From Sanguibacter sp. HDW7 (lineage in GTDB: Bacteria > Actinomycetota > Actinomycetes > Actinomycetales > Cellulomonadaceae), in NCBI RefSeq assembly GCF_011300875.1, contig NZ_CP049862.1, forward strand, positions 1,922,001 through 1,986,000: DNA of 64,000 bases, written 5' to 3'. The notes below the pieces were generated by a model. It was not told where the DNA came from. It saw only the letters and a program-made list of their open reading frames with translations, and ran no database searches. Position 1 is the first letter of the stretch, and each line of letters begins with the position of its first letter. Both the position numbers and the translations under genes were made by a program. Of this stretch, positions 10,493-38,359 are shown in pieces.

Positions 10493-10614
10493 GAGGTTCT
10501 CCTCGGGTCGGAGGGGTGGCGCGGGCCGGGAGGCCTGCGCCGCTGCGTGCTGGGGTCCACGCTATCGGCTCCGGCACGCACCACGGACCGCCACCCACCG
10601 CCACGCCAACTGCG

Positions 10615-10661
10615 CGGATTGACGGCTTCCCACCATCGGATGGTGGGAAGCCGTCGATCCG
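10615..10661. repeat. 47-nt palindromic element, solitary copy
   Basis: A 26-bp inverted repeat (10612-10637 and 10639-10664) with one mismatch and a 1-nt centre, between the Nif3-like and coiled-coil genes. Its central 47 nt align without gaps to two elements at 37516-37562 and 37703-37749. By eye 36 of 47 positions match the first of these, including ACCATCG at the centre and the CGGATTG/ATCCG ends. It may act as the terminator of the SDR/Nif3 pair, but its relatedness to a distant locus marks it as a dispersed repeat. Confidence 0.75.
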
Positions 10662-10679
10662 CGCGGGAGGGGGCGGGTG

Positions 10680-36035: not shown

Positions 36036-37280
36036 ATGACCACCCCTCGCGACGTCGTCGTCACCGGCCTCGGCGCCACCACCCCTCTGGGTGGGGACGT
36101 GGCCTCCACCTGGCGCGCCGCCCTCGCGGGCGAATCCGGCGCCCGGACCTTCGACAACGACTGGTCCGTCACGTACGGCATCCCCGTCGAGTTCGGCGCG
36201 ACCATCAAGGTCGCCCCCGACGAGGTACTCCCCCGTCCCGAGATCAAGCGCATGGACCCCTCGACGCAGTACGCGATGATCGCAGCGCGCGAGGCGTGGG
36301 CCGACGCCGGCTCCCCCGAGGTCGACGGCGACCGTCTCGGCACCGTCGTGTCCTCGGGCATCGGCGGCATCTGGACGACGCTCGACGCGTGGGACACCCT
36401 GCGCGAGAAGGGCGCCCGCCGCGTCCTGCCCATGACCGTCCCCATGCTCATGCCGAACTCCGCGACCGCCTTCGTCTCGCTCGAGCTCGGGGCGCGCGCC
36501 GGTGCGCACGCGCTCGTCTCGGCGTGCGCGTCGGGCGCCGAGGCCATCGGCTACGGCCTCGAGATGATCCGCACGGGCCGCGCCGACATCGTCGTGTGCG
36601 GCGGCACCGAGGCGACGATCCACCCCATGCCGATCGCCGCCTTCGCCGCATCGCGCACGCTCTCGCTGCGCAACGACGACCCCGCGGGCGCCTCGCGCCC
36701 CTACGACACCGCGCGCGACGGCTTCGTCATCGGCGAGGGCTCGGGCATCGTCGTCCTCGAGGCCGCCGAGCACGCTGCGGCCCGCGGCGCCCGCGTCTAC
36801 GCGAAGATCGCTGGCGTCGGGCTCACGGCCGACGGCTACCACATCACGTCCCCCGAGCCGACGGGCGACGGCCAGCGTCGCGCCATGGCGGCGGCCCTCG
36901 CCGAGTCGGGCGTCACCGCGAAGGACGTCGTCCACGTCAACGCGCACGCGACGTCGACCGTCGTCGGCGACCTCATCGAGGCCCGCTCGATCCGCGGCGT
37001 CCTCGGCGACGACGCCGACCACGTCGCGCTCTCCGCGACGAAGTCGATGACCGGGCACCTGCTCGGAGGCGCCGGCGCCCTCGAGACGATCTTCACGGTG
37101 CTCGCGCTCCACGAGCGTCAGGCCCCGCCGACGATCAACGTCACGGACCCCGACCCCGAGCTCGTCCTCGACCTCGTCCGCGACACGCCGCGCGCGCTGC
37201 CGCAGGGCGACGTCGCCGCGATCAACAACTCGTTCGGGTTCGGCGGTCACAACGTCGCGCTCGTCGTGACGAACGCCTGA
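36036..37280 (+). CDS. fabF: 3-oxoacyl-ACP synthase II
   Basis: A 414-residue elongating beta-ketoacyl-ACP synthase. The Cys-His-His triad is visible: Cys in LVSACASGAEAIGYG (near 167), His in VNAHATSTVVGD (near 305) and His in SMTGHLLGGAGA (near 341). The N-terminus DVVVTGLGATTPLGGDVAST is the family signature and the C-terminus NNSFGFGGHNVALV is intact. GAGGAGA precedes the ATG. It ends the cluster; acetyl-CoA carboxylase subunits, which follow fabF in some actinobacteria, are not present. Confidence 0.95.
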   Translation: MTTPRDVVVTGLGATTPLGGDVASTWRAALAGESGARTFDNDWSVTYGIPVEFGATIKVAPDEVLPRPEIKRMDPSTQYAMIAAREAWADAGSPEVDGDRLGTVVSSGIGGIWTTLDAWDTLREKGARRVLPMTVPMLMPNSATAFVSLELGARAGAHALVSACASGAEAIGYGLEMIRTGRADIVVCGGTEATIHPMPIAAFAASRTLSLRNDDPAGASRPYDTARDGFVIGEGSGIVVLEAAEHAAARGARVYAKIAGVGLTADGYHITSPEPTGDGQRRAMAAALAESGVTAKDVVHVNAHATSTVVGDLIEARSIRGVLGDDADHVALSATKSMTGHLLGGAGALETIFTVLALHERQAPPTINVTDPDPELVLDLVRDTPRALPQGDVAAINNSFGFGGHNVALVVTNA

Positions 37281-37316
37281 CGCTTACGCGTGCGAGCTGC
37301 GCACGCGTAGTCTGCT

Positions 37317-37359
37317 CGCTGCAGGGCGGCGCTCCCCGGGGGAGCGCCGCCCTGCAGCG
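37317..37359 (+). terminator. Strong hairpin terminator after fabF
   Basis: Perfect 21-bp stem (37317-37337 and 37339-37359) with a 1-nt centre; a second small palindrome (ACGCGTGCGAGC...GCGCACGCGT) lies just before it. It closes the fab cluster. Confidence 0.8.
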
Positions 37360-37393
37360 TTGGTGCGCACTCCGATGGTTCGCGCTCCCCGAT

Positions 37394-37562
37394 GGATAGC
37401 GGATCCGTACACGTCATGCGTTCCGATCCGCTATCGAGCGCACCGCGCCCGCGGTGGATAGCTGATCAGCGCGGACGAAGTGGTCCGATCGGCTATCGAG
37501 CCACTTCTCCGAACACGGATTGGCGCCGTCCGACCATCGAACGGTCGGAAAGCGTCAGTCCG
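37394..37562. repeat. Composite hairpin repeat, unit 1 (A1-B1-C1)
   Basis: Three hairpins in a row. A1 (37394-37438) and B1 (37456-37500) are both 45 nt, start GGATAG and end GCTATCGAG. Their arms GATAGCGGATC/GATCCGCTATC (perfect) and GATAGCTGATC/GATCGGCTATC (one mismatch) flank 19-nt loops. C1 (37516-37562) is a 47-nt palindrome centred on CCGACC/GGTCGG and belongs to the same family as the element at 10615-10661. No coding frame explains the conservation. Confidence 0.85.
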
Positions 37563-37580
37563 TCGTGCTGGGGAGTCGCT

Positions 37581-37749
37581 GGATAGTGGATCCGTACGTG
37601 TCATGCGTCCCGATCCGCTATCGAGCGCACCACGCCCATGGTGAATAGCCGATCCGTGCAGATGAAGTGGTCCGATCGGCTATCGAGCCACTGCGACGGC
37701 CACGGAGTGACGGTTTCCGACCATCGAACGGTCGGACAGCGTCAATCCG
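37581..37749. repeat. Composite hairpin repeat, unit 2 (A2-B2-C2)
   Basis: Second copy of the unit at 37394-37562, offset exactly 187 nt with no gaps: A2 37581-37625, B2 37643-37687, C2 37703-37749. The copies differ by scattered substitutions, most of them in loops. C1 and C2 match at about 40 of 47 positions by eye. Each A/B arm pair keeps 10 or 11 of 11 base pairs despite the substitutions. Confidence 0.85.
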
Positions 37750-37771
37750 TCGGGACGGGGTTCGGCAGGAA

Positions 37772-37814
37772 GAGCGAGTGCGCGCGTGGTGACGACCCTT
37801 GTGCGCGCTCGCTC
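37772..37814 (-). terminator. Imperfect hairpin after the DUF3145 gene
   Basis: GAGCGAG at 37772-37778 and the complementary CTCGCTC ending at 37814 form the base of a stem continuing through GCGCGC with one or two mismatches; it lies 45 nt past the DUF3145 stop. Confidence 0.45.
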
Positions 37815-37858
37815 CCCGTGACGGGGTCAGCCTGGGTCCGCAGCCGGCGGCGGGCTGG

Positions 37859-38359
37859 TCAGCCGACCCGGTGGAGCCAGCGGACCGGGGCACCTGCTCC
37901 GGCGTAGCGGAACGTCTCGAGCTCGTCGTCCCACGCCTGGCCGAGCGCGAGCGAGAGCTCGGTGCGCATGCGCACCGGGTCGTCGGCGTGCTCGAGGGCC
38001 GCGCGCACGCGGTCCTCAGGGACGACGACGTTGCCGTGGACGTCGGTCGCCGCGTGGAAGATCCCGAGCTCGGGGGTGTGGCTCCAGCGGGAGCCGTCGG
38101 TGCCGCGGCTCGCCTCCTCGGTCACCTCATAGCGCAGGTGGGCCCAGCCGCGCAGCGCGGACGCGAGGCGGGCGCCCGTGCCGGGCTCGCCCTGCCAGGA
38201 CAGCTCCGCGCGCAGCATGCCGGGCGCGACGGGCTGGTCGATCCAGTCGAGGGAGACGCGCACGCCGAGGACGTTCTCGGTGGCCCACTCCAGGTGCGAG
38301 CACAACGCACGGGGCGAAGAGTGCACGAAAAGTACACCGCGGGTCGACGAACCAGCCAT
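37859..38359 (-). CDS. DUF3145 family protein
   Basis: A 166-residue actinobacteria-specific protein of unknown function. Conserved segments are RGVLFVHSSPRALCSHLEWA, DWIDQPVAPGMLRAELSW and the C-terminal LGQAWDDELETFRYAGAG. The start MAGSSTRGVLFVH at 38359 has AAGGAGG about 6 nt upstream; the frame continuing to 38572 is Arg-rich and unsupported. There is no signal peptide, membrane segment or catalytic motif. It lies alone between the repeat locus and def. Confidence 0.88.
   Translation of the reverse strand: MAGSSTRGVLFVHSSPRALCSHLEWATENVLGVRVSLDWIDQPVAPGMLRAELSWQGEPGTGARLASALRGWAHLRYEVTEEASRGTDGSRWSHTPELGIFHAATDVHGNVVVPEDRVRAALEHADDPVRMRTELSLALGQAWDDELETFRYAGAGAPVRWLHRVG

Follow-up and report, generated by a model that had tools for sequence, protein, structure and literature searches.

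Dispersed arrays of inverted half-sites in helical phase, putative binding sites of a protein, in two Flavimobilis chromosomes

The window, i.e. the whole stretch of DNA that was analysed, comprises 64,000 nt of Sanguibacter sp. HDW7 (contig NZ_CP049862.1, positions 1,922,001 to 1,986,000). Its genome (3.35 Mb, Flavimobilis) is referred to as G000; G004 is F. rhizosphaerae, and G001, G002, G003 and G005 are other congeners. Between two convergent genes, named fabF and DUF3145 in an earlier sequence-only reading, the window carries an array of two kinds of element, A/B units and C elements, as follows.

36036-37280, plus strand: fabF, ending 115 nt ahead of the array (open reading frame, codon use)
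37390-37760, no strand: whole array, two 184-nt copies (direct-repeat comparison)
37395-37435, no strand: A/B unit 1, inverted half-sites GATAGCGGATC / GATCCGCTATC around a 19-nt centre (pattern, 0 mismatches)
37457-37497, no strand: A/B unit 2, 62 bp past unit 1 (0 mismatches in 18 specified bases)
37516-37562, no strand: C element 1, a core of 47 nt; its hairpin family shows compensatory pairing (pattern and pairing test)
37582-37622, no strand: A/B unit 3, 125 bp past unit 2 (0 mismatches)
37644-37684, no strand: A/B unit 4, 62 bp past unit 3 (1 mismatch)
37703-37749, no strand: C element 2 (pattern and pairing test)
37859-38359, minus strand: DUF3145 gene, convergent with fabF (open reading frame, genus search)

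The two copies form a gapless direct repeat starting at 37390 and 37577, with an offset of 187 nt and 84% identity, which bears out the order A1-B1-C1-A2-B2-C2 and the ungapped 187-nt register described from the sequence alone. Three of the four A/B units start with GGATAG as claimed, the fourth with GAATAG, and the reported 11-bp stems are present, with one non-Watson-Crick pair in three of the four. The region had also been called gene-free: the codon-usage gene caller from which the gene context of the A/B clusters was taken, and which reproduced the window genes, calls none in the array, but short open reading frames occur there. Folded as single-stranded DNA, all six elements beat their own shuffles (z -2.4 to -5.4). 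Rfam searches of the window returned RNase P and one tRNA elsewhere and no match at the array. Between 37200 and 37950 no U-tract terminator-like site was found (0.1 expected in shuffles), a search that hairpins lacking a U tract escape. Downstream of fabF, at 37317-37359, lies a perfect 21-bp hairpin without a T run, of which G004 has a near copy at the equivalent place.

The DUF3145 gene is kept in all six genomes of the genus, at 98% identity between G000 and G004 and 82-84% with the other congeners. The gap separating it from fabF measures 578 bp with the array in G000, and about 80 bp in G002 and G005 and about 230 bp in G003, all three without array.

A and B proved to be versions of one 41-nt unit, GATAGNNGATC-N19-GATCNNCTATC. 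Its half-site comprises 11 core bp (GATAGCSGATC), made somewhat longer by the flanks, and the half-site centres lie 30 bp, or about three turns, apart. Allowing at most 3 mismatches in the 18 specified bases, the pattern was found 77 times in G000, 88 times in G004 and not at all in the four other congeners. Read backwards it was absent from all six genomes, so the 77 copies of G000 are not due to chance. When at most 2 mismatches were allowed, the pattern matched in 6 of the family's 221 genomes: G000 (74 copies), G004 (85) and four others with one each. A stricter asymmetric form occurred in the genome collection only in Flavimobilis rhizosphaerae GY 10621 (9 stretches), although records close to the window's genome were possibly left out of that collection. 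The arrays occupy about 30 loci per genome among the matches listed. Absence elsewhere, which would have left a neutral local duplication, had been considered in the sequence-only reading; instead the A/B family is dispersed, with orthologous arrays conserved. For the alignments, 54 of 67 A/B sequences (alignment A1) and 14 of 18 C sequences (alignment A2) were used.

A half-site weight matrix detected 333 half-sites in 511,610 nt (fetched loci and window) and none in the reversed sequence, the matrix having been trained on the same sites. All 156 facing half-site pairs no more than 150 bp apart have exactly one and the same distance. Inside what had been regarded as a loop, C16 and its mirror position are conserved like the arms (152 and 155 of 156 sites), as expected of a protein contact. 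The flanks of these sites are symmetrical, with weak GCTC/GAGC, and in none of the 156 was a one-sided unpaired GTAG or CGTC tag found. The array matched nothing among 72,556 plasmid and 50,697 phage records, nor did the exact A/B or C pattern occur in viral contigs, which rules out a plasmid or phage origin as far as these data reach.

The C core (47 nt, CGGATTGACG...CGTCAATCCG) belongs to a separate dispersed family. With up to 3 mismatches, 40 copies were found in G000, 32 in G004 and one each in 15 other genomes among the 221 searched, the backward control also matching 10 other genomes. An additional C element lies in the window at 10612-10664 (G000 1932612-1932664). Distances from C to A/B elements showed no clear phase.

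Pairing was evaluated by counting Watson-Crick pairs at mirror positions and comparing them with the expectation for independently varying arms. Over the ten variable positions of 156 distinct A/B sites, 54.6% was observed vs 52.2% expected, a value reached by 3 of 500 shuffles; once the sites had been thinned to less than 80% identity, which left 30, the values were 44.7% vs 45.5% (reached by 663 of 1000). For all 20 pairs of 54 sites, a previous count had given a similarly small excess, 84.5 vs 83.0%, and a covariation of 0.124 vs 0.102 (4 of 500 shuffles as high). For C, pairing amounted to 70.5% vs 47.3% in 66 sequences (0 of 500 as high), and to 62.5% vs 41.7% in the 26 left after thinning (0 of 1000). 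Judged by these substitutions, C is a hairpin under pairing constraint, combining dispersal with compensatory change as REP-like hairpins do, whereas the A/B arms look like two half-site copies merely able to pair. Because C covaries strongly and the A/B arms vary nearly independently, the earlier description as three structured hairpins lumps two unlike families; its statement that pairing is kept despite substitutions likewise stands for C and largely falls for A/B. Hairpin formation may nevertheless be relevant to the origin or function of A/B, given the small pairing excess and a clear excess in a related family of G002 described below.

Spacings between neighbouring A/B units were measured for units with at most 2 mismatches (n = 87). 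They fall at 61-63 bp (24), 72-73 bp (28), 81-83 bp (11) and 92-94 bp (9), so that all 72 spacings below 95 bp lie in these four classes and none of the 87 lies at 64-71, 74-80 or 84-91 bp. The other 15 (100, 100, 102, 103, 107, 107, 125, 125, 129, 129, 147, 151, 170, 174 and 178 bp) are not clearly phased. Linkers of the same length (20-52) share a mean identity of 32-49% including their ends, compared with 28-34% after shuffling; recent duplicates aside, they have little in common beyond the ends. When linkers more than 60% alike were dropped, 54 of the 87 spacings were left, and all 42 of these between 61 and 94 bp are confined to the same 11 of the 34 possible values. A fit to the distinct-linker spacings gave 61.85 + 10.31 bp per step, and none of 5000 jittered sets was as periodic. 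The step of about 10.3 bp is the DNA helical repeat, and the A/B units thus combine whole-turn spacing with unlike linkers, the mark of a phased array. Of 20 pairs of neighbouring half-sites in the same direction, 15 lie at 30-32, 41-42 or 72-73 bp, the remaining five being at 28, 28, 59, 87 and 137 bp. Some arrays plainly grew by tandem duplication: near-identical units follow each other at 62 bp in locus L143 and at 72 bp in locus L206 of G002.

Orthologous loci of G000 and G004 were then compared in 26 pairs, of which 3 non-colinear ones were dropped (including the window with L164, aligned separately) and 4 gave no match; the sites of L137 were matched to both L103 and L104. Aligned stretches are mostly 82-93% identical. 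With 18 consensus half-site positions in each of 38 matched A/B sites, the two species differ at 13 of 684 places (1.9%), a figure somewhat biased since sites had been chosen at up to 3 mismatches. Out of 76 places each, differences number 2 for the inner C16 pair, 7 for position 6 and 10 for position 7, and the other centre positions differ at 162 of 646 (25%). The middles of equal-length linkers differ at 75 of 155 positions (48%). For 12 of 13 matched linkers the length itself agreed to within 1 bp, matching by 22-nt flanks favouring equal ones; matched by order alone, 10 of 12 agreed, with 100/72 (28 bp apart) and 82/73 (close to one turn) as exceptions. Of 24 distances from stop codon to array, 1 agreed to within 1 bp; among the 11 from arrays with an equal number of units, none did. 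Past the array of L147 (G004), short tandem repeats of the kind GAGGCGAATCAGAGGGGC...CC were noted.

Limitation of an A/B-type system to two species was considered and dropped following a search of the four other congeners with a relaxed A/B model, which returned 37 weak matches (best E 0.022). Read by eye, some of these constitute a related family in G002 and G005, GATCGCCCG-N23-CGGGCGATC, of 41 nt, whose CAC...GTG centre is similar. The 800 kb of G002 picked around the weak matches contain 43 sites in 22 clusters of up to 7 units (reversed control 0), and 43 of 44 facing pairs have one spacing. Spacings over distinct linkers were 62, 62, 63, 72, 72, 72, 73, 73, 82 and 83 bp, with 56, 101, 118 and 143 bp outside the classes; the fitted step of the ten in-class values is 10.08. 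All ten spacings of 57-94 bp fall in the classes set beforehand from G000 and G004, which makes them an independent check, as the classes were already fixed from two other genomes. The G002 arms covary (68.3 vs 61.5%, 0 of 1000 as high), mainly at positions 9-11; the 8 sites that survive thinning give the test no power. By reading both flanks, 4 of the 22 clusters were placed in gaps that carry A/B arrays in G000 or G004; two of the four lie beside the AbiEi_4-DUF559 gene treated below, one flank having been matched by blastn and the other by that gene. A single site was read in G005 (L185). A de novo search for inverted 8-mers at fixed length revealed no such family in 200 kb each of G001 and G003, 140 kb of G014 and 120 kb of G020.

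Several other repeats were observed. Seven units of the G002 family stand in a row at exact 72-bp steps at L206:14213-14685. Loci L196-L252 of G002 (e.g. L205:18749-18814) hold a dispersed element of four half-sites CGAGGTAGGGCC, two direct and then two inverted, with 19 bp within each pair; the 800 kb contain 30 of its arm pairs at exactly 47 nt. At L193 and L194 (G002 and G005) there is a long conserved hairpin, GAACGAGAGCGCCG...CGGCGCTCTCG, whose centre, ACACCTGGGGTGT, is similar but whose arms are different. In G013, from another genus, a palindromic repeat with arms CGGTTTTGG and an arm-to-arm distance of 50-52 was seen at L255:10403-10744 and L260:12273; of its 4 copies in 140 kb, three are spaced by 145-146 bp.

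In G000 and G004 together, 69 A/B clusters were placed: 34 in convergent gaps, 25 in tandem gaps, and 5 in divergent gaps, while 4 border a contig edge and 1 falls within a called gene. Tandem gaps in these loci sum to 28.9 kb, convergent ones to 19.9 kb and divergent ones to 13.5 kb, so that by intergenic length divergent gaps are under-used. The family is thus dispersed, extragenic and mostly 3' of genes, the location known for REPs and BIMEs. With a DnaA domain at 3,305,312 of G000, 19 of 29 A/B loci lie within 500 kb of dnaA, i.e. in 30% of the chromosome (simulated p about 0.001), and so do 15 of 38 C loci among the matches listed, which is no significant excess (p 0.13).

As suggested in the sequence-only reading, a REP-associated transposase was sought. 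The RAYT-type Y1 domain (PF01797) was found in none of G000, G004 and three other congeners, and once in G005; as a control, the same search matched in 5 of 14 control genomes as well as in G005. The REP/BIME-like reading consequently holds for location, mostly at gene 3' ends, and not for a Y1 transposase in G000 or G004. Pfam was run on 35 of the roughly 61 distinct genes next to arrays in G000, five further proteins having come from a contig start. Among those scanned, no functional theme emerged: they are varied enzymes and transporters, and DNA-binding domains comprise a LuxR-type (L091), an Arc-like (L090), an NrtR winged helix (L109) and an AbiEi_4-DUF559 protein (L098). The Arc-like gene (62 residues) adjoins the array in L090 and has an ortholog in L149 (95% identical), with no match in the other fetched loci. 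The AbiEi_4-DUF559 gene (307 residues) lies between two arrays in both G000 and G004 and has extra half-sites at its 3' end. A homologue in G002 (L213; about 49% identical, frame broken) lies between arrays of the other half-site, and none was found in plasmids. As a RAYT-like partner the AbiEi_4-DUF559 gene was rejected: the gene next to it is shared too and aligns equally well (82-83%), so gene order alone may explain its position between arrays. The Arc-like and AbiEi_4-DUF559 genes are two weak candidates for a putative A/B-binding protein. At the 3' end of the latter gene, four half-sites in the same direction follow at exact 30-bp steps in G004 (L141:2250-2361) and at 28, 28 and 59 bp in G000 (L098:3439-3575).

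Taken together, the A/B elements are probably phased arrays of duplex sites for a putative protein, placed in a BIME-like manner mostly at gene 3' ends. The near-independence of the arms, the constant half-site distance, the whole-turn spacing across free linkers and the conservation of precisely the half-site bases are most simply read as duplex recognition, which would imply a protein that is dimeric on the unit and interacts between units on one face. The unit would accordingly act as duplex DNA, not as RNA or a single-strand hairpin, and each would be bound by a dimer of a putative sequence-specific protein. Steps of whole turns (62, 72, 82 and 93 bp) would bring successive sites onto one face of the helix, along which the protein may bind cooperatively to give a compact nucleoprotein block. 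Since arrays lie mostly at gene 3' ends and more densely around the origin, its role would likely be architectural, as a local supercoil barrier, transcription barrier or bridging node of the kind proposed for BIMEs; the position at 3' ends speaks for such a role and against classical operators. Among the three options named in the sequence-only reading, protein-binding DNA sites fit A/B best, although its reason, kept pairing, hardly applies to them.

Copying of hairpins by a transposase acting on single-stranded DNA, as in miniature mobile repeats of the REP/BIME type, would account for dispersal, intergenic position, the 34 of 69 clusters between convergent genes and the palindromic form; lengths would then be set by the copying unit, with no role beyond spread. 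The covarying arms of G002 and the REP-type hairpin appearance of C agree with it. We regard this explanation as unlikely for A/B, given that no Y1 domain was found in G000 or G004, that the A/B arms are nearly independent and that whole-turn spacing with unlike linkers is not expected from hairpin copying. Less probable still is that the spacing records how arrays were built, by a recombinase or transposase complex adding or duplicating units at helical distances, and not how they work. Tandem duplications are indeed seen (187 nt in the window, 62-bp units in L143, 72-bp units in L206), but linker lengths stayed within 1 bp in 12 of 13 cases while about half of the linker-middle bases changed and nearby non-array distances drifted, so a later constraint is needed. 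RNA stem-loops serving as terminators or mRNA 3'-end stabilisers would suit the 3'-end location and the folding of the elements; we consider them very improbable, as the near-independent arms speak against them, the 10.3-bp spacing finds no reason in RNA, and 37200-37950 holds no U-tract terminator-like site, with the reservation on U-less hairpins made above. Neutral local duplication of chance hairpins explains the tandem 84%-identical units at the one locus and is otherwise ruled out, its probability being negligible in view of about 30 loci per genome among the matches listed and half-sites conserved at orthologous loci.

Retaining the reading as phased duplex sites, we propose, more tentatively, that the arrays could well represent a bacterial chromosome element of a new class: in each genome, about 30 scattered arrays in which pairs of duplex half-sites keep strict helical phase, with a putative bound protein. 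Within one genus the recognition sequence would have turned over (GATAGCSGATC in G000 and G004; GATCGCCCG in G002 and at one G005 site) with the 41-bp plan, the centre and the 10-bp rule kept. If so, sequence alone records the way in which a chromosome-wide protein assembles on DNA, with site and face fixed and the linker free, and the specificity of a dispersed factor has changed with its architecture preserved, a natural experiment. The REP category would also split within one genome into hairpin repeats (C) and duplex binding arrays (A/B), and the helical-phase rule would open the role of BIME-like arrays to direct testing. Both the phasing and the congener family with another half-site go beyond the sequence-only reading.

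Sites on one helical face permit cooperative assembly in phased operator arrays, e.g. those of Lac repressor loops. Such operators occupy one or few regulatory loci, whereas A/B arrays occupy about 30 loci per genome, mostly not at divergent promoters. No literature on helical phasing of REP-like arrays was retrieved by title or abstract, which does not prove its absence, and none of the retrieved papers naming Flavimobilis has repeats in its title or abstract. According to the available part of PMC2817692, BIMEs of E. coli are bound by IHF, gyrase and DNA polymerase I and, like A/B, consist of palindromic units in intergenic arrays, often in convergent gaps; a statement on their helical phase was not found in that part. 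A/B differs in that no RAYT was found in its genomes G000 and G004, in arms with hardly any covariation and in linkers that are unlike yet of whole-turn length. GTAG/CGTC-tagged REPs resemble A/B in forming two-unit groups 20-100 bp apart, mostly 3' of genes, and CGTC REPs are without known transposase (PMC3733652, in the part available). Compared with the tagged REPs described there, A/B units are longer (41-45 nt), symmetrical and without an unpaired end tag. C has CGTC at its ends, but paired. On tag and transposase A/B therefore falls outside the REPs, though it may work like a BIME, and C comes nearer to the usual REP-like hairpins.
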